DNA of 28,478 bases, taken from Myxococcota bacterium. GTDB taxonomy: Bacteria; Myxococcota_C; UBA6777. The stretch's first letter is position 1, and every line of letters starts with the position of its first letter. The translations under genes were made by a program, and so were the position numbers. This document shows, piece by piece, positions 3-23,379 of the stretch. A model generated the notes under the pieces. That model saw only the letters and a program-made list of their open reading frames with translations. It searched no databases and was not told the DNA's origin. The stretch covers positions 1 to 28,478 of the forward strand of contig JAKLKB010000090.1 in assembly GCA_023150835.1 (NCBI GenBank), written 5' to 3'.

Positions 3-100
3 CCTACAATATCCGTCAAAAGCGTATCCATAAGCGTCGATGCGGTTTGTTGTAAACGCCCTGTGATTGGGCAGCCACAGGGGGCTGCCCCTACTTTTTC
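3..100 (-). repeat. Dispersed hairpin repeat family 2, copy 1
   Basis: Read on the minus strand, this stretch matches the elements at 5765-5847 and 20467-20557. All begin with GTAGGGGCAG, fold into a short GC hairpin (here GGGCAGCC at 69-76 pairs with GGCTGCCC at 83-90), continue through GGGCGTTTAC or a close variant, and end near a GATATNGTA-like tail. The far end lies at the window edge, so the copy may extend further. It is non-coding on both strands as far as can be seen. Confidence 0.7.
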
Positions 101-184
101 ACGTACTTCACGGACGGAACTCGTAGAAACTGTTTGCTTTGAAAAAAGCAGCCGTCGAAGCGAACAGACCGGAGCAGAAACCTC

Positions 185-313
185 GTTACGCAGGGAAAAA
201 AGAGTCGTGTTGTCAGCGAAACGAATCGATTGAGTTGGTCCAAGTGGTTCGCGAACCGCCCCTACAACGTTCTGATATCTCAGGGTTTCCCTTTTCAACT
301 GCGTAACTCCTAT
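185..313. mobile_element. Degenerate MITE remnant (same family as 20644-20761)
   Basis: The right end AACTGCGTAACTCCTAT (297-313) is identical to the right terminal inverted repeat of the intact element at 20644-20761. The core GGTTCGCGAACC followed by GCCCCTACAACG is shared as well. The left end is eroded: only GTTACGCAG (185-193) remains of the expected 17-bp inverted repeat. It has no coding capacity. This is a non-autonomous element remnant by comparison with the second copy. Confidence 0.6.
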
Positions 314-580: not shown

Positions 581-2014
581 ATGAACACGTCCCGCCGTTC
601 TTACGGGTGGATTGGGGTCTTTGGGGCCATCACAACCATCGCATTGGCTTGGGGAATCTCCCCAACACCCGTTGTTGGACAATCCCCCAAGTTCCACACC
701 ATCTTTTACAAGCGCCTCTTCAACATGACTCCTTCTGCTGCGTGGTCTCCAGACAGCCGCTACCTCGCCTTTCATGGCTTGCGCGCCTCCCCAAGCTATG
801 CCTACCGCATCCATCGCCGCAGCACACACTCCCCCTACCGCCGCGCAACGACCTCACCCGTGTATCGCCGCAACACGCACTCCCCAATCTACCGCCGCGC
901 CACCGCCTCACCCGTGTATCGCCGCGCCACCGCCTCTCGTGTCTATCGCCGCGCCACCGCCTCTCGGTTCTATCGACGAAGCACTCACGCACGCTATCGC
1001 GACACACGCGCAGCCTACCGAAACAAATTGCTCTCCGCAGATCGCGTCTATTCGACTGTTCCAAATCGTAGTCACCTCGGTTTGATCGACGCCTTCCGTC
1101 GGACGCTTCGGACGCTTCCGGCCTACGCTTACAAACGCTCCACCTCTTCCGCCGCGTATTTCCGACCGCGCTGGCTCAACGCAAGCCAAGTCGTCACCAG
1201 CACGGGCTTCAGCGGCGATGGCCAATTCATCGACACAACCACGCAGCGACAAACCTCGCTCCAACGCTTTTCCACGGTGCATCCGCACCCACAAGGGCAG
1301 TTTTTGGTCGGGCGCGACCCCCAAACGGGCGTGTTTTTGGTCAAGACGCATTTGTACCATACACGCTACGCGCTGGTCGACAAACGCCGAAGAATCGGTG
1401 GATTTTTGCCGCAGTTTAGCCCCGATGGCCGCTATCTCGCATGGATCGATGCAACGCACGATTATAGCGCGGCCAGCCTCAAGGTATACGCCTTCCCCTA
1501 TCGCCCCGAAACACTCGACAAAGACGCGAACTTGCGCATCCGCAGCCCTTGGTCTTGGGACAAGGCCGAGTACCGAGCCATCGAGTTGCGCGAGATCCCC
1601 ATCCCCGAAACAGGGCCGATCGTCGACTTTGTGTGGGGTCCACAAGGCCGTAGCATCGCCTTTGTACGCGGCGATGGATACAGCGGTGCAGGCAATTATC
1701 AGCACACCACCAAGGGCCTTTACCTGATGGCCTTCGACGGTGAAAACAGCCAAAAGCCCCGCCTACTCGACCGAAAAGGCGATCAACCTTCCTTTATGCC
1801 AAACGGCAGCGTTGCTTATCACCGTCGCAACGGTTTCCGCGATGAGATATGGTTTTGGAACGCCACCCAAAGCGGAAAAACCTTTGTTGTGTACGGACAC
1901 GAACCGCGCATCTCCCCAAATGGCCGTTATCTGGCGTACTTGCGTTGGTTGCCTCCCCAACGCGCTTGGGGCGACGGCGCACAACTCTTCCTCGGTATCC
2001 TCGCCCTCCCGTAA
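581..2014 (+). CDS. Secreted TolB-like (PD40) beta-propeller protein with Arg/Tyr-rich repeats
   Basis: The protein has 477 aa. The start ATG at 581 follows AAAGGAGGAATTG, a near-perfect Shine-Dalgarno. Residues 1-34 look like a signal peptide (basic start, hydrophobic core, V-V-G-Q region). PD40/TolB-type strands are visible: AAWSPDSRYLAFHG (~53-66), then FSPDGRYLAW, GPQGRSIAFV and ISPNGRYLAYL further on, which suggests a six- or seven-bladed propeller in the envelope. Between the first and second blades sits a very basic stretch, ~86-140, of six imperfect 9-residue repeats of the form YRRATASPV. No catalytic residues are apparent. Proteins of this fold usually bind partners or ligands rather than catalyse, so I cannot name a function. 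The next gene is on the same strand 196 bp downstream, across a dispersed repeat, so co-transcription is uncertain. Confidence 0.8.
   Translation: MNTSRRSYGWIGVFGAITTIALAWGISPTPVVGQSPKFHTIFYKRLFNMTPSAAWSPDSRYLAFHGLRASPSYAYRIHRRSTHSPYRRATTSPVYRRNTHSPIYRRATASPVYRRATASRVYRRATASRFYRRSTHARYRDTRAAYRNKLLSADRVYSTVPNRSHLGLIDAFRRTLRTLPAYAYKRSTSSAAYFRPRWLNASQVVTSTGFSGDGQFIDTTTQRQTSLQRFSTVHPHPQGQFLVGRDPQTGVFLVKTHLYHTRYALVDKRRRIGGFLPQFSPDGRYLAWIDATHDYSAASLKVYAFPYRPETLDKDANLRIRSPWSWDKAEYRAIELREIPIPETGPIVDFVWGPQGRSIAFVRGDGYSGAGNYQHTTKGLYLMAFDGENSQKPRLLDRKGDQPSFMPNGSVAYHRRNGFRDEIWFWNATQSGKTFVVYGHEPRISPNGRYLAYLRWLPPQRAWGDGAQLFLGILALP
836..1000 (+). repeat. In-frame 27-bp tandem repeat, about six units
   Basis: The units encode YRRATTSPV, YRRNTHSPI, YRRATASPV, YRRATASRV, YRRATASRF and YRRSTHARY. 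The 27-bp period keeps the frame open. The middle units are nearly identical at DNA level, which indicates recent duplication inside the propeller gene. Confidence 0.8.
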
Positions 2015-2043
2015 GACCTCCGTCCCAAAACAAATCGATGTTA

Positions 2044-2164
2044 AACCCCCCGTGTTCGCACCCGTCCAAGCGGCAGCGCCGTTGTTTTGAAAAACGGCTG
2101 TTCGCCCCGCCAATACGGGGTCAAGGGGCGACAGTCTATGGCGGGGCATGGTACCTCGCCCCAC
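2044..2164 (+). repeat. Structured dispersed repeat family 1, copy R1
   Basis: One of seven ~120-bp copies in the window. Shared landmarks in order are CCCGTGTTCGC, TCCAAGCGGCA, a TTTGAAAAACG-like segment, CCCGCC, ACGGGGTCAAGGGG and a terminal GCCCCAC. In this copy the second-half hairpins are partly degraded. It lies between two same-strand genes and ends 47 bp before the next ATG, so it would form much of that gene's leader. Confidence 0.85.
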
Positions 2165-2210
2165 ACAACAGAACGACCGCGATCACACCCAAAGGAAAAG
2201 GAGCGCAACC

Positions 2211-4328
2211 ATGCGCCGATACGGGCCAGCGATGGTGTTGTTTTTGCTACCGTTTGCCTATGATCCGTGGGCCTATGATGTATTGACCGCCAAATACGGG
2301 GCGTGGATGGTTTGCGTGGGGTTGTGGGCCAGCGTGCGGCTCTGGGAAGGGGATCTACCCCGTTATTCGGGCACGGCAATGGCTTTGTTGATCGGTTTGT
2401 ATTTGCCATCGTGGGTGCAGGGGGCTTCTTGGGCGCATACATGGGTGCCGTGGAGCCAAGCGCTTGCGTTGGTGTGGTGGATGTTGTTGGTGTGGGACGC
2501 GCTGCTACAAAGTGAAGAGCCGAGAGTGCTGCAAGCAACGTGGCTGCGGGCTTCTGCGATGGGATTGGTATCGATCTCGCTTCTTGCGGTGGTGGAGTGG
2601 TGGCATCCGCAAGCCTTCGTCTGGTCGGGTGCTGTAAGGGGATTGAGCAATGCGACGATGGGCAATCCCAACCATCTCGGGGCATTGCTTTCGGTGGGGC
2701 TACCGATCTTCTTTGTGCTGGGCAGGCGTTGGCGATGGGGAGCGCTTTGCGTGGTGGTGGGGATCGCCACGACAGGCTCTCGATTAAGCCTATTGACCGC
2801 CTACATCCTGATGGCGCTTGGGGCGATCTTGACGTGTTGTTTTGGTGGAGGGCAAACGCTGCGTGAACGCTTGCAAACGACCGCATGGGCGGCCTGTTGC
2901 ATCGGGGCGTTGTGGTTTGGCGCAAAGCAACTCACTCCACAAAAGCAGATCGCGGATATCGCGCAAGGAAGGGGCGGGATCTCTGCTCGCCTTCATCTTG
3001 TGCGATGCGCGCTACCGATGAGCCAAGAAGCCCTTCCTTGGGGCCTTGGCTACGGGCGCTTCCGTCAGCGTTTTCCTGCCCATCGTGGACGTTGTTTGAA
3101 GGGGACGGTCTTTGCGCAAGCTCCGCTACATACGGTCGCTGTCAACTTGCACAACGACTGGCTCCAGATCGCCCTCGAAGGCGGTCTATTAGTTGTTTCT
3201 GTGTTGTTGGCTGTGTTGCTTTGGTGGGGGCTGCTCTTGCTGCGCTCGCTCCGGATGAATCGCCCCACCCCATCGGCTCAATCTCCACAGTTTTCAGGAA
3301 ATGTATGGCTGCTTCTGCCGATGCTTGGGATTTTTGTGCAGATGGGTGGAACATTCCCGATCCAATTGCCGTCTGTTCTCGCGCTCGCGACACTTTGCGC
3401 GTTATCCGCCCAACACGCGATGTTTTGCGCATCATCAGTTCAACAGGCGATGCCCTGCGCATCATCATCCCGATACACGGCGATTTGCGCACGATTCGCC
3501 CGATACACAACACCCTTTCGTTGGTTCCGACACAGCCCCGAGCATCCTGCCCCACAACAAGCCACCACCGACGCAGCCGTTGGCTTCTATCTCAAAGCTA
3601 CGCTGCGATGGGGATATTGGGTGCTTTGGTTGGTAGTGATGTTTGTTGCGATGCGGGTGGTGCGAGCCGAACACTTGCTTGTCCAAGGGATGCGTGCGAT
3701 GGAGCGGCGTTCGTCCGATGCTACGGCACTTTTGCAACAAAGCGCCTCGCTGCACCCTTCCGAACAAGCTCTGTTCCAACTCGGCCAAGCACAGCTTGCA
3801 TCACGACAGCCCGAACCTGCCATCGACTCCTTGCAACGGGCTTATGCGATCTTTCCAGACGTTCAAGTCGCCCTCACGCTCGCCGAAGCCCATCTCGCTC
3901 TTCGCAATCTTCACCATGCCCGCCGTGATCTTCACCATGCCCGTCGTGATCTTCGCCATGCCCGTCGTGATCTTCGCCATGCCCGTCTTTGGCTGTTGCG
4001 TGGACTGGCCCTTCACCCCCACCACACCGAAACGATCTCGCTTCTGCGCCACATCCAAAAGATCACCTCCTCGACAAAAAAGATCACACCAAAGATGATC
4101 ACGCCTGTTTTGCCACCCACTTCACCCCCGAGCCTCCATCCCTTCCCTCGCCAACCTGCACCACAACCCTCGGATGATCCTGATCTGTGGCCTGCATCAC
4201 AACCCTCGGATGATCCTGATCTGTGGCCTAGATCACAGCCTGCCTCCCAACCCTCGGATCTGTGGCCTAGATCACAGCCTACGACCCAGACGACACCCTC
4301 ACCACCTCAAAAAAAGCATCTGCGATAA
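2211..4328 (+). CDS. O-antigen ligase/polymerase-like membrane protein with C-terminal TPR and repeats
   Basis: The protein has 705 aa. ATG 2211 follows AAAGGAAAAGGAG; an upstream in-frame start at 2148 has no such site. Residues ~1-395 hold about ten membrane segments with the hallmarks of the WaaL/Wzy_C superfamily: GNPNHLGA (151-158), TTGSRLSLL (187-195), and the periplasmic-loop motif HNDWLQIALEGG (314-325), which carries the conserved His. Such proteins transfer or polymerise undecaprenyl-linked glycans at the periplasmic face. A further TM helix (~465-483) precedes a TPR-like helical region (~485-620), a fusion seen in some family members. Three tandem arrays are inserted: 30-bp units at residues ~400-437, 7-residue LHHARRD units at 566-593, and 12-residue PSDDPDLWPASQ units at 653-690. 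No glycan cluster is visible nearby, so the acceptor is unknown. Confidence 0.8.
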   Translation: MRRYGPAMVLFLLPFAYDPWAYDVLTAKYGAWMVCVGLWASVRLWEGDLPRYSGTAMALLIGLYLPSWVQGASWAHTWVPWSQALALVWWMLLVWDALLQSEEPRVLQATWLRASAMGLVSISLLAVVEWWHPQAFVWSGAVRGLSNATMGNPNHLGALLSVGLPIFFVLGRRWRWGALCVVVGIATTGSRLSLLTAYILMALGAILTCCFGGGQTLRERLQTTAWAACCIGALWFGAKQLTPQKQIADIAQGRGGISARLHLVRCALPMSQEALPWGLGYGRFRQRFPAHRGRCLKGTVFAQAPLHTVAVNLHNDWLQIALEGGLLVVSVLLAVLLWWGLLLLRSLRMNRPTPSAQSPQFSGNVWLLLPMLGIFVQMGGTFPIQLPSVLALATLCALSAQHAMFCASSVQQAMPCASSSRYTAICARFARYTTPFRWFRHSPEHPAPQQATTDAAVGFYLKATLRWGYWVLWLVVMFVAMRVVRAEHLLVQGMRAMERRSSDATALLQQSASLHPSEQALFQLGQAQLASRQPEPAIDSLQRAYAIFPDVQVALTLAEAHLALRNLHHARRDLHHARRDLRHARRDLRHARLWLLRGLALHPHHTETISLLRHIQKITSSTKKITPKMITPVLPPTSPPSLHPFPRQPAPQPSDDPDLWPASQPSDDPDLWPRSQPASQPSDLWPRSQPTTQTTPSPPQKKHLR
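3408..3521 (+). repeat. In-frame 30-bp degenerate tandem repeat, ~3.8 units
   Basis: The units encode AQHAMFCASS, VQQAMPCASS, SRYTAICARF and ARYTTPF. They lie in a loop between the last ligase membrane helix and the helix that precedes the TPR part. Confidence 0.65.
3906..3989 (+). repeat. In-frame 21-bp tandem repeat, four units
   Basis: The units encode LHHARRD, LHHARRD, LRHARRD and LRHAR within the TPR region. Adjacent units are almost identical in DNA, so this is a young expansion of a helical segment. Confidence 0.8.
4167..4280 (+). repeat. In-frame ~36-bp tandem repeat in the C-terminal tail
   Basis: Units of the form PSDDPDLWPASQ or PSDDPDLWPRSQ are followed by a shortened PSDLWPRSQ. 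They make up the Pro/Asp/Trp-rich, probably disordered end of the ligase-like protein. Confidence 0.8.
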
Positions 4329-5698: not shown

Positions 5699-5764
5699 TC
5701 TAGTTCCCACTCTACTCTTCTCTCCCCTTTATACGAAATCCGCCCGTTGAGTTATCGTAAAAAT

Positions 5765-5847
5765 GTAGGGGCAGCCCCCTGTGGCTGCCCAAGAATCGGG
5801 CGTCTACGTACTATCTTACGATCACACATCACTCGGATATCGTATTA
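5765..5847 (+). repeat. Dispersed hairpin repeat family 2, copy 2
   Basis: GTAGGGGCAG opens the element, GGGCAGCC (5769-5776) pairs with GGCTGCCC (5783-5790), then GGGCGTCTAC follows and the tail GGATATCGTA ends it. It is collinear with the copies at 3-100 (opposite strand) and 20467-20557. Confidence 0.75.
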
Positions 5848-5905
5848 CTCTGCTCTTCTGCCCCTCTCCCCAGTTTGTTGCTCTGCTCCATTTTGTTTTT
5901 TCTTT

Positions 5906-6028
5906 TGGGGTGCTACCCCACACCCCGCCATAGAACTGCCGCCCCTTGACCCCAGCATCGGCGGAACAAGCACACGTTTTTCAAACGAACGTCCGTGCCG
6001 CTTGAACGCTTGCGAACACGGGGTTTTT
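5906..6028 (-). repeat. Structured dispersed repeat family 1, copy R2
   Basis: On the minus strand it reads ACCCCGTGTTCGC, TTCAAGCGGCA, TTTGAAAAACG, TTCCGCC, TGGGGTCAAGGGGCGG and ends in a GGGG-TAGCA-CCCC hairpin (5907-5919). It is located between convergent genes. Confidence 0.85.
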
Positions 6029-6103
6029 CTCCACAAGCCACCCGACCCTCGCCTTCTTCCGCTTTTTTCTCCCCCCGTTTTTTTCTCCCCGTCCGTGTTT
6101 TCC

Positions 6104-6183
6104 GTGTTTTTCGTGGACTGTGTTTTTCGTGGACTGTGTTTTTCGTGGACTGTGTTTTTCGTGGACTGTGTTTTTCGTGGACT
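6104..6183. repeat. 16-bp perfect tandem repeat, five units
   Basis: The unit GTGTTTTTCGTGGACT occurs five times without change, preceded by a partial, variant unit. The 16-bp period is not a multiple of three, so apparent reading frames through it repeat FVDCVFRGLCFSW-like strings and are spurious. It lies in the gap between two convergent genes, 58 bp from the stop of the minus-strand gene. A classic VNTR layout. Confidence 0.95.
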
Positions 6184-6241
6184 CTTCTTTCTGTGCCTCA
6201 CGAAGCGCGAAACTCCCGCTGGTCGTATATGTTAGGCTGCC

Positions 6242-10824: not shown

Positions 10825-10916
10825 CGGAAGCGTACAGGAATCGAACCTGCCCACGAGGGATCACCCCGCACGACGGTTTTGAAGACCGCGAGCGCCACCA
10901 GACGCCATGCACTTCC
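10825..10916 (-). tRNA. selC: tRNA-Sec (anticodon UCA)
   Basis: On the minus strand the gene begins GGAAGTGC and ends ACGCTTCC plus discriminator G. It is ~92 nt, far longer than an ordinary tRNA. The anticodon arm is GCGGT-CTTCAAA-ACCGT with anticodon TCA. The D arm has a six-pair stem (GGCGTC/GGCGCT) closed by a four-base loop, a tRNA-Sec hallmark. A long variable arm and a T arm (GCAGG-TTCGATT-CCTGT) follow, close to E. coli selC in order and sequence. The innermost acceptor pair would be C-A and one pair is U-G. CCA is not encoded. The gene implies SelA/SelB and at least one UGA-decoded selenoprotein elsewhere; none is visible in the window. Confidence 0.93.
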
Positions 10917-11012: not shown

Positions 11013-11056
11013 GAACACCCTCCCCACCGTCCCAAACGCGCCCTCTGCCGTCCGCC

Positions 11057-14000
11057 TCACCCCTCTTCCCTAGCCTCTTCGATCTGCCCCTCTTTCCGAG
11101 CCTCTTCGATCTGCCCCACAGTTCGGGCCTCTTCGATCTGCCCCTCTTTCCGAGCCTCTTCGATCTGCCCCACAGTTCGGGCCTCTTCGATCTGCCCCAC
11201 AGTTCGGGCCTCTTCGACACGCCTTTCGTGCCGGATTTCTTCGAGCCACCCTCCCCACGCAGCCAAGGTTTCACCCACTTCATCCAACGCAAGCAGACCC
11301 GCCAAAAGACGGAAATACTCGCGATCTTTGCTGTGCCGATTGCCCTGCTCACCCGCCACCAAACGCTTGTGCATCTTGCGCATACGCCGCAACGCCTCCA
11401 ACACTTGGTGATGTTGGGCCAACGCCCCTTGAAAAGCTTCGCTGTGTTCGTCCAAAGCTTCAAAAGCCTGCTTCCACGTCCAAATACGTTGCTCTTCGCC
11501 AAACGGCAACGCCAAAAACAGCCGCCTCGCCTCGCGGTACGCTTCGGGCCATCGCTCCTCAAAACGATCCAAAGCCGTCGTGCGCGACGACTGTTCCGTC
11601 GACCAACTCGATGTCCGTTGCTCTTGTATCGCGTGCTCTTGTTCCGCTTCGTGCCAAACGTGCGCCGCCACATACGCCAACCATGTACCCTCTCGAACTT
11701 CCCCGATATCCGTGATCTCCGCAGCACGCGATCTTGTTCCCATCTCTTCTAACAACGCCATCACCTCTGCCAGCCATTCTTTGCGCATCTCTGCCCAAAC
11801 TTCCTCTCGATCCTCCCCCTCCCCATGCTCCCTCAACAGATAACGCGACTCTTCCTTGATGTGATGTTGCAACGTTGCTTCGTAATAGCGAGGAAAAAAG
11901 CTCGCCATCTCCTCCTCCGAGATCGTCCGAAAAAACCACAGCAAGGCCGCCATCTGCGCGGGTCTCCCTTGCCGCATCCCCAACGAAAGATCTGCTTTCA
12001 GAGACGAATACTGCGGAAAACATCGCCTCGGATCGATCCGAAACGTCCGAACAGCGGCCATCTCCCCAGACAAGGGACCTTCCCCAAACCATGAACCTTC
12101 CCCCTTCGCGGCTTCTTCCGCAAGCAAGGTGTCCACACCTTCCGCAAGCAAGGCCAACTCTGTCGGCCAAACCACCGACAAACGCCGCAACACCTTGGCC
12201 AAACCCACCGGCCACACAGGCACAGCCGCCGACCAACGCCCCGTCGAAGCCGAACGCTCTTCGCCTGTCGTACGCGATATCACCCGAACATCCCCATCCA
12301 CCGCACCTTCAACACGACGACTCATCGTCAAACGCTGCAATGACTCCAACAACTGTCTGCGGATCTCTTCGACACGCCAGATCTTGATCGTCCGCAACTT
12401 GGACTCCAACAAGAAGAATTGGCGCAAGATCTCCGTCACGTTTCGCAAAGACAACGCTCGCACCAAGTCACGCAACAACCTGCGCCGCCCCTTGATCTCT
12501 CGATCAAACGCTTGATCTTCCAACTGCAAGATGCGGTAGATGCGCTCTTTCGCTTGATCGCGATGCTCGTCTCTCTTTTCTTTGCTTTTTTCGAGCAGAA
12601 TCTTTTCCAACAACCTTTTGCTCTCGTCACGCAAAAGCTTCCGTTGCTCCGCAAGACTCCGCGTAAAATCATCCCGCTCAAACGCCTCCCTAACTTGCGC
12701 ACCTTCCGTCGCTTCCTCCCAACGACGCATCATATCCTCAAGATATCCACCCTCTCTTCTTTTTTTCTCCAGCGCCTGTGCTTCTCGACGTGCGGCTTGC
12801 ATACTCTGCTTGTAGTCTGCCAACAGTACCGCAAACTCCCTCCACGCCGCTCGTTGCTGTCTTCTCCCCTCCCACACTTCCAACGTTCCCCTCAACCACG
12901 CAACCTCTTCTTTACGCCCCAACTCCTTGCCATCCAAAACCTTGCGCAGATGGCCTACATAACGCGGCTGTTCGTTGGAGGCAAACCGATACAGCTTTGA
13001 AAAAAACACCTCCAACAAGGCCGATGCGTTGGGCAGATCAAACAAGGCCACCAAAAAACGCCGCTGCGCCGCCTCTTCGCCCTCCAACGCCTGCAACACG
13101 CCCTTCACGCTCACGGGCTCTGTCTTCATCAACTCGATCGTATGCGCCACCAAAAAATCCTGCTGCGCCTCTTCGATCAATGGAACACTCGCCGACTTGT
13201 AAGCCGAAAAGATCGGCAGAAAACGATCGTAGATCCCCAACAATGCGCCTCGTTGCTTTGGATCAAACGATGCCGCCTGCACGCTCACCTTCTGCAAGAT
13301 CTGTTGGCTATGCTGTAAAAACACCGGTAACAAACGCCGTAAGGGCCTCTGCTCTAGCGCATCCAACAACCGACGCAACGTCTCGACAAACCGCTGCGGA
13401 TCGCGACCCATCTCCCAAGAACGCGAACTCCAAAAAGCATCCGCATGTTGCCCCATCTCCAAAAAACGCAACGCCCAATCCTCTCCGATCGCCTCGCAGG
13501 TATGGCTCCTTTCCGCCCACTCCCCCAACGCCTCGACCGTCCCTTCCAAAGCAACCCTCAGGTAGTGCTCAGGTCCATGCTGTTGCAACGAACCTCCTTG
13601 CCAAGGCAAGATCGCCAACCGATACGCGATCTCCATCCGCAACGACACGATATGCTGCAACAAAAATTGGTTTGGCTGCTCCTGCTTAAACAACAACGAC
13701 TCCGCAAGCTGGATATGCAAAAGCGCTTTCTCAGGAGCCGTATCTGCGAGCTTTTCCGCCATCAAGCGCGCTGACAAGATCTGATCGTCCTGCTCTTGAA
13801 ATGAATATCCCCCGTACTCCGTACAAAAATCATCGATCTCCCCCTCCCAAACATCCCCCACATCCAACGCGATCCCACGCAACAAACCTGCGATCACACC
13901 TTGCTCCCCATGTGCCGAAAAGATCACCAGCCGCTCTCTCGAACGACTCAGCGCGATCCGCACCAGATCGATCGATTGACGCAAACGCAACAAACGCAGC

Positions 14001-15820
14001 GGATCGTCTTCAGAGACTTTTTCGAGTACGATATCCACCACCCCCACCCACTGAAAGTCCAACCCCTTGACCTCCGAAGACAACAAAAAGATCTCCGCAC
14101 CATTGCGCGCATAAGCCCCCTCTCCTTTGTCATAGAACTGCTGTGACGACGGGTACACCACACTCGGATACAACACCACCGAGTCCGGCAAATAACGAAA
14201 AAACGACAGCAGCCTTGCGAAGGCATACTTGGCCCCTTTGGGACCCGACTTCACCAAAAACACCGATGGCCGCTCGGTGATCTCCTCTTTGCTCGGAATA
14301 TGCGACAACCCGCTCGGTCGATACGCCTTTGGCAACCAAGCGCTGTATAGATCACGCGAGGCCCCCAAGATCTCCGCAATCAACGGCGGCGAACGCAAGT
14401 TGTCTCGCAAATCAAATTTCTCTGTCTGGTCGGGACCTCGGAAAAATTGACGACTCACATCCGCCCAATCAAAAAAGGTCGGACGTGCCGTCTGCCCCTC
14501 ATCCCCCGCCAACAAACACACCACCCGACCCGCCGCTCCCTTGTGCGCGACAGATCCTTTTGGCTCCAACTGCTCGCCCATTTGAGCGTGCTCTTGCAAA
14601 CGCGCCCAAAACCGCGACAGCACCCGAAACTCTAGCGGCGTCAAATCTTGGATCTCATCCACCACGATCCAATCCACACCCCGCAATCCCTCCGGGATCT
14701 CTCCCCCACCCTCCAATCGCCCCAAAGCCCACAACGCCAAAAACAACGGACGAAACAACTTCAACAACGTGAATTGCTTTTCTTCATCCTGTTGCGAGAC
14801 CTCTCCACGACGTTCACTCCGACGCATCGCCTCTTCTTGCGTCCTCTGCAAAAACTGCAACACCTGCACGACGCTTTGACCATCCCGTCCCAAGACTTCT
14901 TGACGATGCTTCAAATACGCATCTCTCTGAAACTCCCATGCCACCGCCCGTTGCACACCCTCCAAACGGCTCCCCCCTCCCACCGCTCGCGGAAAACAAT
15001 AACGCCCAAAAACCTGCCCATACATCTCCGCAAACAACAACTCCCACGCCCCCTCCCACCGCTGCAACGGCGTATAACGCTTCTCCGAAAACGTCGAAAA
15101 CAACCGCCCCAACTCCTCCTCATGCACAGAAAACAGCGCCGATTCTTCTTCCCCCGCCAGCCTCGCCCAAAAAGACACCAACGGCAAACAAGACACCCGC
15201 GTCGGCGTCTCCAAAGAACGAAAAAACGCCTCCGCTCGCTCCACCAACCGCTCGCTTAACGTCAAGTACAACACGTGCCGCGCACCATCGTTCTCCGCCG
15301 ACGCCAACGTCGACAACCACAACGACGTCGTCTTGCCTGTCCCGGGCAGCCCCTTTAACAAACGCAAGGCCGCCCGTGAGTGCGCCACTTTGTACTGATC
15401 CAACGAATACGGAGACTCCATCATCCCATCCGCTTCGTTAAAACACACCACCATCCGCAGTCTTTCAGGAGAGACCCTTTGGTACGCTTCGATCTCTCCT
15501 TCTGATAATTCTTCTGATGTCTCGTCATGATGCCGCAAGATCCGCAAGTAGATCTCTTCTCTGCGACCTCCCTTCCATGACATCGCCGAACCCGTCTTCC
15601 ACCACAGATAATAGTGGTAGCCTTGCACAGGCGAACGCAGCCACCCCTTCGCAACACCTTGGATCGCTTTGTAACTATTGCTCTGGCCTGTCGCCAAAAA
15701 TTGCTGCAACAACAGCGTCACCCTCCGCCGAAAAGTCTCTTGTGCAAAGCTTCCTTCTTCTAATTGAGCCACCAGATCCCTGTGCATAGACACCACATAC
15801 AGTTCTTGGCTGTCGTACAT
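11057..15820 (-). CDS. UvrD-like superfamily 1 helicase with ~950-aa helical tail and terminal repeats
   Basis: The protein has 1587 aa. ATG 15820 follows AAGGAG with 7-bp spacing. SF1 motifs appear in order: Walker A GLPGTGKTT (157-165), Walker B VVDEIQDL (386-393), motif III AGDEGQT (438-444), motif IV LRDNLRS (471-477), motif V SSEVKGLDF (581-589) and motif VI RIALSRSRERL (621-631). It is therefore an ATP-dependent translocase/helicase of the UvrD/PcrA type, but with ~155 extra residues before Walker A. Beyond ~640 the protein is almost entirely charged alpha-helix or coiled coil, with no nuclease motif I can recognise. It ends in six 9-residue repeats of EEARTVGQI/EEARKEGQI type. UvrD is ~720 aa, so this is more than twice the usual size. 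Standalone giant SF1 proteins of this shape occur in repair and defence, and the role here is unknown. It is divergent from the enoyl-CoA isomerase gene. Confidence 0.85.
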   Translation of the reverse strand: MYDSQELYVVSMHRDLVAQLEEGSFAQETFRRRVTLLLQQFLATGQSNSYKAIQGVAKGWLRSPVQGYHYYLWWKTGSAMSWKGGRREEIYLRILRHHDETSEELSEGEIEAYQRVSPERLRMVVCFNEADGMMESPYSLDQYKVAHSRAALRLLKGLPGTGKTTSLWLSTLASAENDGARHVLYLTLSERLVERAEAFFRSLETPTRVSCLPLVSFWARLAGEEESALFSVHEEELGRLFSTFSEKRYTPLQRWEGAWELLFAEMYGQVFGRYCFPRAVGGGSRLEGVQRAVAWEFQRDAYLKHRQEVLGRDGQSVVQVLQFLQRTQEEAMRRSERRGEVSQQDEEKQFTLLKLFRPLFLALWALGRLEGGGEIPEGLRGVDWIVVDEIQDLTPLEFRVLSRFWARLQEHAQMGEQLEPKGSVAHKGAAGRVVCLLAGDEGQTARPTFFDWADVSRQFFRGPDQTEKFDLRDNLRSPPLIAEILGASRDLYSAWLPKAYRPSGLSHIPSKEEITERPSVFLVKSGPKGAKYAFARLLSFFRYLPDSVVLYPSVVYPSSQQFYDKGEGAYARNGAEIFLLSSEVKGLDFQWVGVVDIVLEKVSEDDPLRLLRLRQSIDLVRIALSRSRERLVIFSAHGEQGVIAGLLRGIALDVGDVWEGEIDDFCTEYGGYSFQEQDDQILSARLMAEKLADTAPEKALLHIQLAESLLFKQEQPNQFLLQHIVSLRMEIAYRLAILPWQGGSLQQHGPEHYLRVALEGTVEALGEWAERSHTCEAIGEDWALRFLEMGQHADAFWSSRSWEMGRDPQRFVETLRRLLDALEQRPLRRLLPVFLQHSQQILQKVSVQAASFDPKQRGALLGIYDRFLPIFSAYKSASVPLIEEAQQDFLVAHTIELMKTEPVSVKGVLQALEGEEAAQRRFLVALFDLPNASALLEVFFSKLYRFASNEQPRYVGHLRKVLDGKELGRKEEVAWLRGTLEVWEGRRQQRAAWREFAVLLADYKQSMQAARREAQALEKKRREGGYLEDMMRRWEEATEGAQVREAFERDDFTRSLAEQRKLLRDESKRLLEKILLEKSKEKRDEHRDQAKERIYRILQLEDQAFDREIKGRRRLLRDLVRALSLRNVTEILRQFFLLESKLRTIKIWRVEEIRRQLLESLQRLTMSRRVEGAVDGDVRVISRTTGEERSASTGRWSAAVPVWPVGLAKVLRRLSVVWPTELALLAEGVDTLLAEEAAKGEGSWFGEGPLSGEMAAVRTFRIDPRRCFPQYSSLKADLSLGMRQGRPAQMAALLWFFRTISEEEMASFFPRYYEATLQHHIKEESRYLLREHGEGEDREEVWAEMRKEWLAEVMALLEEMGTRSRAAEITDIGEVREGTWLAYVAAHVWHEAEQEHAIQEQRTSSWSTEQSSRTTALDRFEERWPEAYREARRLFLALPFGEEQRIWTWKQAFEALDEHSEAFQGALAQHHQVLEALRRMRKMHKRLVAGEQGNRHSKDREYFRLLAGLLALDEVGETLAAWGGWLEEIRHERRVEEARTVGQIEEARTVGQIEEARKEGQIEEARTVGQIEEARKEGQIEEAREEG
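11073..11234 (-). repeat. 27-bp tandem repeat, six units of two alternating types
   Basis: The units encode EEARTVGQI or EEARKEGQI, in plus-strand order type A, B, A, B, B and one diverged unit. Each shares the same 14-16 first bases and differs in a cassette of about 13. The period keeps the helicase frame open to the last residues. There are no spacers, so this is not a CRISPR. Confidence 0.9.
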
Positions 15821-16043
15821 CCCGATGCTCCTTGGCTTGACTTGACAGGATCGCCGCAACTTTGTACAGCTTGGATCTTCTCTTCGTGCTTGGCCATCTT
15901 ACAGATCTGCCCAGAAAGCCCAAGTGCTGCTCCCTTCACACAACAAGGCTTCGCTCCCAAAAGGTAGGTCTTCCTTACTTTGGTTCTTTCTCGGTGATCT
16001 TTGCAATCCTTTTCTTCCTCTTTCGATACAGAAAGGTTCCACC

Positions 16044-16742: not shown

Positions 16743-16802
16743 TCTTTTGTCTCTCCGATGCAACGGGCGATTCGATGAAACGTGACACCGTTGCATGGTT
16801 TT

Positions 16803-16923
16803 GCGGGGCTTTGCCCCATACCCCACAAGGGAGCGCGGCTCCCTTGACCCCGTATCGGCGGAACGAGTAGACGTTTTTCAAACCCACGACTGCGCCGCTT
16901 GAACGTCCGCGAACACGGGGTTT
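16803..16923 (-). repeat. Structured dispersed repeat family 1, copy R3
   Basis: On the minus strand it has both hairpins intact: CAAGGGAG...CTCCCTTG and GGGGC-AAA-GCCCC. ACCCCGTGTTCGCG opens the element and TTCAAGCGGCG, TTTGAAAAACG and TTCCGCC follow. It lies 60 bp after the isomerase gene. Confidence 0.88.
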
Positions 16924-17001
16924 ATGTCCGCGACGAAAGTCCTGCCCATCAAAAAGACAGCAAAAGCGAGATCCCAAGCAAAGGAGCACGTCGATCACAC
17001 G

Positions 17002-18180: not shown

Positions 18181-18210
18181 GAACTCCCCGTAAGCGCGAC
18201 ACAGTCTATC

Positions 18211-18330
18211 AAAACCCGTGCTCGCGCCACTCCAAGCAGCAGAGTTGTCTGTCTGAAAAACGTTCATGCACTCCGCCAACGCAGAGTCAAGGGAGTCGCG
18301 ATCCCTTGCGGGGTGTGGGGTCGAACCCAC
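18211..18330 (+). repeat. Structured dispersed repeat family 1, copy R4
   Basis: AAAACCCGTG opens it, and TCCAAGCAGCA, CTGAAAAACG and CTCCGCC follow. Two hairpins can be drawn, CAAGGGA...TCCCTTG and GTGGG-GTCGAA-CCCAC. It diverges most in the GGGGTC segment, which here reads AGAGTC. Confidence 0.82.
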
Positions 18331-18457
18331 AAAACAAACCCAACCACGCAAGCCCTCTCTCAAAAAAATTTGAAATATCGGCTTCTCTCTTACAACGAAG
18401 TGTTTCAGAGCAAAAGCAGCCTGTTGGTTCGCTTGGTTCATCGGAGCTTTTTGGATC

Positions 18458-20438: not shown

Positions 20439-20466
20439 AGCCCGCAGTACTGGTGTGATCGCAAAA

Positions 20467-20557
20467 CGTAGGGGCAGACCCCTGTGCTGCCCAACAACAG
20501 GGCGTTTACAACAAACCTTGGCGACGTTTCGATCACGCATCTCTCAAATATCGTACA
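20467..20557 (+). repeat. Dispersed hairpin repeat family 2, copy 3
   Basis: GTAGGGGCAG opens the element, GGGCAG (20472-20477) pairs with CTGCCC (20487-20492), then GGGCGTTTACAACAAACC follows and the tail ATATCGTACA ends it. The 18-base middle segment is identical to copy 1 read on the minus strand. Confidence 0.75.
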
Positions 20558-20643: not shown

Positions 20644-20761
20644 ATAGGACTTACGCAGTTCGATACGAAAAAGGCCCATGTTCGGGCGCGGGCGGTTCGC
20701 GAACCGCCCCTACAACGGGTTGATTCTTCACGCTTTCCCTCTTCAACTGCGTAACTCCTAT
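20644..20761. mobile_element. MITE with 17-bp terminal inverted repeats
   Basis: ATAGGACTTACGCAGTT (20644-20660) is the inverted copy of AACTGCGTAACTCCTAT (20745-20761), with one mismatch. CTTC occurs on both sides (20640-20643 and 20762-20765) and may be a 4-bp target duplication. Inside is a perfect 18-bp palindrome, GGCGGTTCGC-GAACCGCC (20691-20708). The element is 118 bp with no open frame, so it must rely on a transposase supplied in trans. None is in the window. Confidence 0.85.
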
Positions 20762-21648: not shown

Positions 21649-21670
21649 AAGTGGCGCGTTGGGTTTATTT

Positions 21671-21795
21671 TGTGGGGTTGGAACCCCAAACCCCACAAGG
21701 GACTCACGCCCCTTGACCCCGTGAGGGGCGAAAAGATCGCAGGCTTTTCAAAACAACGACTCTGTCGCTTGGACGGGCGCGATCACGGCTTTTTT
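21671..21795 (-). repeat. Structured dispersed repeat family 1, copy R5
   Basis: On the minus strand it reads GCCGTGATCGCG, TCCAAGCGACAG, TTTTGAAAAGCC, CACGGGGTCAAGGGG. Hairpin one is CAAGGG...CCCTTG; hairpin two is TGGGGTT-CC-AACCCCA, whose pairs differ from other copies on both sides. It is opposite in orientation to R6, 240 bp away. Confidence 0.85.
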
Positions 21796-21963
21796 GCCGC
21801 GCAACGGCTCAATAAACCACGAACAATATCTCGCTCTTCTCCTCTTTTTGGGGCTTGGCAGAGCCCTGATGTGGTCGTCTTTCTTGAAGTGAGTTGACAA
21901 CCTACAGGAAAGACGGCCACTTCCCTTTCGGGAAGACCTTTTCTTCTCTGCACACGGCCCAGA

Positions 21964-21992: not shown

Positions 21993-22034
21993 GATCGTTC
22001 TCTTGCAGCTTTTTCTATCAAGAAACGAAGCATC

Positions 22035-22157
22035 AAAACCCCCCGTGTTCGCGAGGCTTCAAGCGGCACGAATGTTTGTAAAAAAACCTCCGTTCACCCC
22101 GCCAAGTCGGGGTCAAGGGGCCAGCGGTCCCTTGCGGGGTTTGGTACCTCGCCCCAT
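22035..22157 (+). repeat. Structured dispersed repeat family 1, copy R6
   Basis: It starts AAAACCCCCCGTGTTCGCG, passes TTCAAGCGGCACGA and ACCCCGCC, and ends TACCTCGCCCCA. Like R1, it carries the GGTACCTCGCCCC variant of hairpin two, which suggests that R1 and R6 form a subgroup. Confidence 0.85.
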
Positions 22158-22223
22158 AAAACAAAAATAAAACCAACCCGCTATGTTCACAAAACAACAA
22201 ACCACCACGAAGGAGTCTCTCCA

Positions 22224-23117: not shown

Positions 23118-23186
23118 TCCATCCCTCCGCCCCCCCAAAAACAACCACCAAACTGATCAAGATCCGATCTGAATCACGGCCTCGAT

Positions 23187-23310
23187 AAAAAGCCCGTGTT
23201 CGCGCCACTCCAAGCGCCACCGTCGTTCGATTGAAAACATCTATTCACCCCGCCAAATACGGGGTCAAGGGAGCGTGGCTCCCTTGCGGGGCGTGGGGCA
23301 GCGCCCCACC
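23187..23310 (+). repeat. Structured dispersed repeat family 1, copy R7
   Basis: The best-folded copy. CAAGGGAG (23266-23273) pairs perfectly with CTCCCTTG (23279-23286), and GTGGGG (23293-23298) with CCCCAC (23304-23309). The outer part reads AGCCCGTGTTCGCGCC, TCCAAGCGCCA, GATTGAAAAC and CACCCCGCC. It lies between convergent genes, where it could act as a bidirectional terminator. Confidence 0.88.
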
Positions 23311-23379
23311 AAAGACAAAAACCACACCAACAAAACCAACCCAACGAACAATCGCCCCACCCGCGCTCAAAATCTCGAA

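Follow-up and report, generated by a model that had tools for sequence, protein, structure and literature searches.

What is the unit of about 120 bp that recurs seven times within a 28,478-nucleotide contig of a Myxococcota genome (the window), and do its hairpins reflect selection on a folded strand or merely the palindromic habit of small bacterial repeats? A preliminary description had listed seven copies of a discrete structured family and could not name it. All seven were recovered at those places and on those strands (E at most 2e-25). A sequence-only covariance model built from 36 copies found them at E 1e-25 to 2e-33 and had no other convincing match in the window, and a structural covariance model scored them at 95-132 bits (E 1e-25 to 1e-35, values that are rough). 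The copy under study, R7, has its core at 23184..23312 on the plus strand (119.9 bits, E 3.4e-32). The others are R1 at 2040..2167 (+; 98.6 bits, E 2.9e-26), R2 at 5902..6031 (-; 97.7 bits), R3 at 16800..16928 (-; 132 bits, E 1.5e-35, the top-scoring copy of the window), R4 at 18206..18333 (+; 95.2 bits), R5 at 21669..21798 (-; 103.8 bits) and R6 at 22033..22160 (+; 102.1 bits). The repeat indeed matches no known RNA family: at gathering score, the Rfam 15 models hit only tRNA-Sec in the window (the selenocysteine tRNA gene at 10825-10916, minus strand), and in 13 loci that carry a copy none of them matched the repeat at E<=5.

The family is large and narrowly distributed. An HMM of the 36 copies, run over 80 tiles of 12-20 kb (1.56 Mb) from the window's own genome, of which about a quarter was read, gave 167 matches and none in reversed versions of the same tiles; 139 of the 167 are full length, which defines a core unit of about 125 bp. 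Extrapolation gives some 800 copies per genome (an earlier, smaller sample had suggested about 950), and 150 strong copies were counted in one search alone. The whole unit is present in its own genome and in one genome of the same genus, both of them fragmented MAGs, and is absent from three other genomes of the family and from 36 unrelated ones. When 84,980 species genomes were scanned for the pattern, the only match was KLAP109, a Myxococcota-labelled MAG that is this same-genus genome, of a sister species with 91% DNA identity to the own genome across one shared gene. The pattern was absent from viral contigs.

In R7, the fold runs on the plus strand and consists of helix P1 (23192-23200 with 23256-23264), helix P2 (23214-23217 with 23250-23253), hairpin P3 (23266-23274 with 23278-23286), hairpin P4 (23293-23299 with 23303-23309) and a lone tertiary pair (23287-23301) that joins the P4 loop to the P3-P4 linker. 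The lone pair is C-G here and C-G or U-A across the family, and the pair closing the P4 loop likewise covaries between C-G and U-A. P2 contains a family-wide covarying pair, 23217-23250; in R7 itself it is C-C and unpaired. P1 varies little, so that only its tolerance of G-U pairs speaks for it; it is compatible with the fold, hardly covaries and is hardly tested by variation.

With 36 copies, RNAalifold detected little covariation. Mutual information over 280 copies, on the other hand, singled out three pairs at z 33-38, the next best reaching 19: 58-92 (A-T in 129 copies, G-C in 125), 128-142 (C-G 125, T-A 115) and 140-144 (C-G 147, T-A 114). They correspond to 36-73, 113-129 and 127-131 of the 130-copy alignment A2, where 36-73 is G-C in 60 copies and A-U in 59, and 113-129 is C-G in 59 and U-A in 49. 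Two of these strongest pairs, 36-73 and 113-129, lie outside the hairpin stems and had been missed by the preliminary description. For the structure named above, which leaves 87% of cells paired in the 130 copies, 214 cells were changed on both sides, as against 87 after shuffling and 32-83 when partners were slid; the covariation score was 0.175, compared with 0.121 for shuffled and at most 0.072 for slid partners. Partners changed together on 27 branches for 36-73, 56 for 113-129 and 42 for 127-131, the tree for the first two having been built without their columns, whereas non-partner control pairs changed together on 2-19 branches and much more often changed singly. Moreover, 36-73 and 113-129 persist within every stratum of the variable bases between the partners; together with their co-change, this is a pattern that neither linked inheritance nor conversion tracts can produce. 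The covariation is real by comparison with co-change, shuffled and slid controls, and the hairpins are kept in most of the 130 copies.

Most copies are not all copies, however. The compensated 3' hairpin variants quoted earlier for R7, R5, R4 and R2 are present, but R1 and R6, which carry the GGTACC variant, have the terminal hairpin altered to GGTACCTCGCCCC, R1 and R2 have the lower part of the preceding hairpin mispaired (CAAGGG/CTATGG), and P3 or P4 is broken in about 10-15% of copies. At A2 columns 90-95/106-111, arms of the types CAAGGG and CCATAG face arms of the types CCCTTG and CTATGG and are mismatched in about 10-15% of copies, as if the arms had been exchanged separately. Over P1-P4, the tertiary pair and an alternative helix, H2, there are 1062 G-U cells and 200 A-C cells, and this large excess places the fold on the reported strand, although about half of the G-U cells come from H2. 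That helix (A2 70-76 with 111-117) has 94% of cells paired, largely via G-U, and is mutually exclusive with P2; the two could possibly form a two-state fold. What is shown, then, is that the core preserves one specific single-strand fold, formed by the reported strand and made up of P2, P3, P4 and the lone pair.

The core is also the middle of a larger element, a feature that the preliminary description had overlooked. About 30% of copies sit inside a MITE of about 170 bp with the TIR TAGGACTTACGCAGTTG and target duplications of 5-6 bp. Alignment of 124 copies with their flanks reveals an inverted repeat, degenerate in sequence, beyond the core. The best copies have an element of 157-172 bp that reads TAGGACTTACGCAGTTGCC...CAACTGCGTAAGTCCTA and is flanked by duplications, for instance CCAGA, TAAGA, TTTGA and TCAAA. 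The TIR is found at 13 or more of 17 positions at 37% of left and 32% of right ends (null 0) and is absent, with information near zero, in 39% of copies. Among 52 copies with two TIRs, the five bases outside the ends agree at 0.485, compared with 0.327 (maximum 0.392) in 200 shuffles. Elements of this size, around a core of some 125 bp, hold no transposase gene, and no transposase gene with the same TIR was found in the sampled or pattern-searched sequence: every intact TIR read in the sampled genome belongs to the main MITE, to a second, 116-bp MITE or to a close variant of these. The second MITE shares the TIR (TAGGACTTACGCAGTT...AACTGCGTAACTCCTA), lies at window 20645-20760 with the duplication TCTTCA, and occurs in 8 copies in 1.19 Mb, again with no autonomous partner found; a right-end piece of it lies at window 246-313. 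By its type, the TIR element would be a MITE of a DDE-type insertion sequence. Three candidates for an autonomous element were rejected: an IS1634-type transposase is present as fragments only, with ends that do not match; a TIR pair 2.06 kb apart at C102 is a chance pairing flanking unrelated genes; and a 1218-bp TIR pair at locus L137 is the main MITE with another element nested inside it and no transposase.

No recognisable pair of TIRs accompanies any of the seven copies in the window. R7 is TIR-less and R1 has no recognisable TIR, while weak candidates for a right TIR occur downstream of R4 and at R5. In TIR-less copies generally, the left flank carries no information right up to the core, and the right flank is rich in A and C over its first 24 bases, with 47% A in the first six (about 27% otherwise); the TIR-bearing copies have the same A/C-rich 3' side. 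Core identity to the consensus is independent of TIR state (rho -0.07, p 0.28), being 0.807 in the TIR-poorest class and 0.795 in the TIR-richest one. TIR-bearing cores belong mostly to the subfamily A58/T92 (A58 in 62 of 81 such copies) and TIR-less cores to G58/C92 (G58 in 75 of 109). Between the two sister species, sites that are occupied in one and empty in the other show that the unit inserts at new places. The entire stretch of R2, for example, is missing at the orthologous place in the sister genome, and so are 8 of 34 TIR-less and 3 of 19 TIR-bearing copies; the TIR-less copies are therefore not simply older. Direct repeats scoring at least 10 flank 8 of 119 TIR-less copies (1.3 expected) and span 13-24 bp in these few, while most TIR-less copies have no visible duplication. 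At two TIR-less copies, L211:3188 and L130:6959, the site is empty in the sister species; their duplications measure about 14-17 and 19 bp and are separated from the core by 3-5 bases in front and 17-38 bases behind. Direct repeats of 28, 20 and 17 bp at L192, L180 and L168 were discarded as target duplications, being local duplications or TIR matches. The numbers are small; TIR-less insertion may be a second mode, but it is not proof of retroposition.

Comparison of the 22 copies shared by the two species indicates how the cores evolve. Substitutions per site are 0.104 in the core and 0.097 in the outer flank, so per-site constraint is modest; gaps per site are 0.028 and 0.227, respectively, a difference that is partly due to ascertainment. 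Divergence among the cores is overdispersed, with a variance of 97 on a mean of 13 (29 and 11 in the outer flank), the differences between orthologous cores fall in patches, and in 11 of the 22 pairs some other core is closer than the ortholog, though the flanks match at about 90%. To judge from these alignments, copies that exchange sequence with one another would best explain the patchy replacement of cores.

The copies are placed as one would expect if a mobile element were tolerated, and unlike leaders or riboswitches. The copies had been called intergenic throughout; 205 of 237 do lie outside the genes predicted by a home-made gene finder, but not every one. Orientation is mixed, with 56 antisense and 34 sense copies in tandem gaps, and the downstream gene is on the same strand in 71 cases and on the opposite strand in 97. 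Convergent gaps hold 41 copies, compared with about 28 expected from gap length, and divergent gaps hold fewer than their lengths predict.

Taken together, the repeat is probably a non-autonomous mobile repeat of about 800 copies, restricted to one genus, with a selected single-strand fold; it is partly a MITE with TIRs, and its core sequence appears to be exchanged between copies. Selection of the fold would mean that the repeat needs its single-strand form during propagation or for stability, and the folded strand may well act during propagation itself. RNA would be a likelier folded form than single-stranded DNA because of the strand asymmetry. Spread would probably combine TIR-based transposition with another route, by which cores travel without a TIR. 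The earlier suggestion of selection on, or replication through, the fold is partly supported, as regards a fold conserved at covarying pairs; that the single-strand form is what selection favours is something we infer from it. It could be argued instead that the covariation is mutational, template switching within palindromes making arms complementary without any selection. Known mutation mechanisms suggest that this would account for the compensatory changes in P3 and P4, but 36-73 and 113-129 straddle freely varying bases and, since they are not palindrome arms, template-switch correction is an unlikely cause; we consider such an origin highly improbable. A role in host gene control, as cis-regulatory RNA or terminator, is scarcely more attractive. 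The intergenic position, the hairpins and the enrichment between convergent genes would suit it, yet both orientations occur everywhere and antisense outnumbers sense in tandem gaps, evidence by which this reading is largely refuted; in addition, no U-tract follows the hairpins and insertions are polymorphic between the sister species, so that it is very unlikely.

The remaining alternatives concern the mode of spread. The copies might all be those of a plain MITE that once had TIRs and lost them with age, ectopic gene conversion refreshing the cores. The patchy core exchange is what this would require, and the concentration of A58 in TIR-bearing and of G58 in TIR-less copies looks as if the former were younger. 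However, the TIR-less copies bear no trace of a TIR, yet are absent from the sister as often as the TIR-bearing ones (8/34 against 3/19), and two of them are insertions into empty sites with direct repeats of 14-19 bp; we therefore regard a plain MITE as rather unlikely. More doubtful still is that the core is a SINE-like bacterial retroposon, TIR-less in itself, whose RNA would be copied by reverse transcriptase into staggered breaks, giving variable duplications of 13-24 bp and an A/C-rich 3' tail, which would overwrite existing copies in patches and which a TIR element would have captured in part of the family. The sharp 5' end next to random flank, the A-rich 3' side, the excess of direct repeats at TIR-less copies, the strand-specific fold and the two empty sites would all fit. 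On the other hand, the A/C-rich 3' side also occurs in TIR-bearing copies and may be element sequence, most TIR-less copies lack a duplication, and a scan of a sampled 2.7 Mb for reverse transcriptase motifs, weak and without positive control, found none. Finally, mobilisation by a RAYT, as for a REP or BIME, would be in keeping with the GC palindromes, the intergenic position and the one RAYT-like gene in the genome. REPs are palindromes of 20-40 bp thought to be moved by RAYTs (PMC3733652), though, and the present unit is far longer and has target duplications; moreover, the RAYT-like gene (at L077; NF047646 58 bits, below the cut-off of 80) is flanked by GTAGGGGC repeats instead and lies about 5 kb from the nearest copy of the core repeat. 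The RAYT link raised by the preliminary description was accordingly rejected, and there is next to no likelihood left for this reading. The same gene has internal IGQAQ repeats and, downstream, an array of a GC palindrome family (GTAGGGGCAGCCCCC...) that also occurs at window 52-103, 5756-5807 and 20463-20529 and at L077/L331, with about 66 motif hits per Mb.

A mobile repeat with a selected fold may be set beside several known systems. REPs and REPINs with their RAYTs (PMC3733652, PMC3116915) are likewise intergenic GC palindromes in hundreds of copies, but they are several times shorter, and the present unit has target duplications and no RAYT linkage. In its broad kind, the repeat is one with the ERIC, Correia-NEMIS and RUP MITEs (PMC2229807), which are also of about 100-200 bp, non-autonomous, intergenic and numerous, form single-strand stem-loops and have TIRs and target duplications in part of the copies. 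It differs from them in its duplications of 5-6 bp rather than TA, in its many copies without TIRs, in a fold of P1/P2, two 3' hairpins and a lone tertiary pair with no long TIR stem, and in its pair-by-pair covariation and apparent exchange of cores. The Caulobacter CIR repeats (PMC2229807) resemble it in having about 110 bp, several stem-loops, no single long TIR stem and few MITE features, but belong to another phylum and have another sequence, a comparison made with the review's description and not by alignment. Small bacterial repeats are usually filed as REPs or as decayed MITEs with incidental hairpins. Here, by comparison, co-change at pairs for which palindromes cannot account shows the fold to be conserved, on one strand, and the family goes on inserting although many of its copies have no TIRs. 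Two questions can thereby be addressed in one system: what an internal structured RNA (or single-stranded DNA) does for a bacterial MITE, and whether movement or copying of a structured core is possible without TIRs.

Partial likenesses to the unit occur elsewhere. Repeats in one genome of the same family (G003) and one of another family (G027), seen at loci L260-L289, have a similar 3' half of hairpin, GCGGGG linker and hairpin, which in G027 includes a GGGGC-ARM-GCCCC hairpin; the 5' half is not shared, and the likeness may be homology or convergence. Of 381 genomes from other families, two hold the exact pattern GCGGGGT-GGGGC-RRM-GCCCC, the unrelated G027 with 30 matches and G052 with one. 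Structural-model matches in G027 and G003 were not accepted as a wider family, only the 3' two-hairpin half being in common. The 3' end of the repeat also matches small plasmids (NZ_OK324135.1:2802-2827, NZ_CP011478.1:5957-5982 and NZ_CP120985.1:1453-1499) over about 26 bases (E 6e-4 to 0.09), with one match of 47 bases at 81%; these may be chance hairpin likeness. Two inspected plasmid matches adjoin mobilisation genes.

Several other features lie near copies of the repeat or within the window. A further element, of about 180-1025 bp with the ends GGCGTTAGG and GCGCCTTG, is inserted in GC hairpins, including P4 of the core repeat, with a hairpin of about 15 bp duplicated on both sides (L150:5260-5514, L040:1626-1842, L098:15506-15721, L137:3168-4192 and others); 19 cases lie beside the core repeat in the window's species and none in the sister sample. 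At L076, a TnpB-family gene (1656-3014; guided_TnpB 86.9 bits, under the cut-off) lies 1.3 kb downstream of a repeat copy at 218-346, probably by coincidence. In the window itself, 27-bp tandem repeats at 11033-11248 fall inside the end of a 1600-aa ORF (11057-15859), and a 16-bp tandem repeat, GTGTTTTTCGTGGACT, at 6088-6195 directly adjoins R2.
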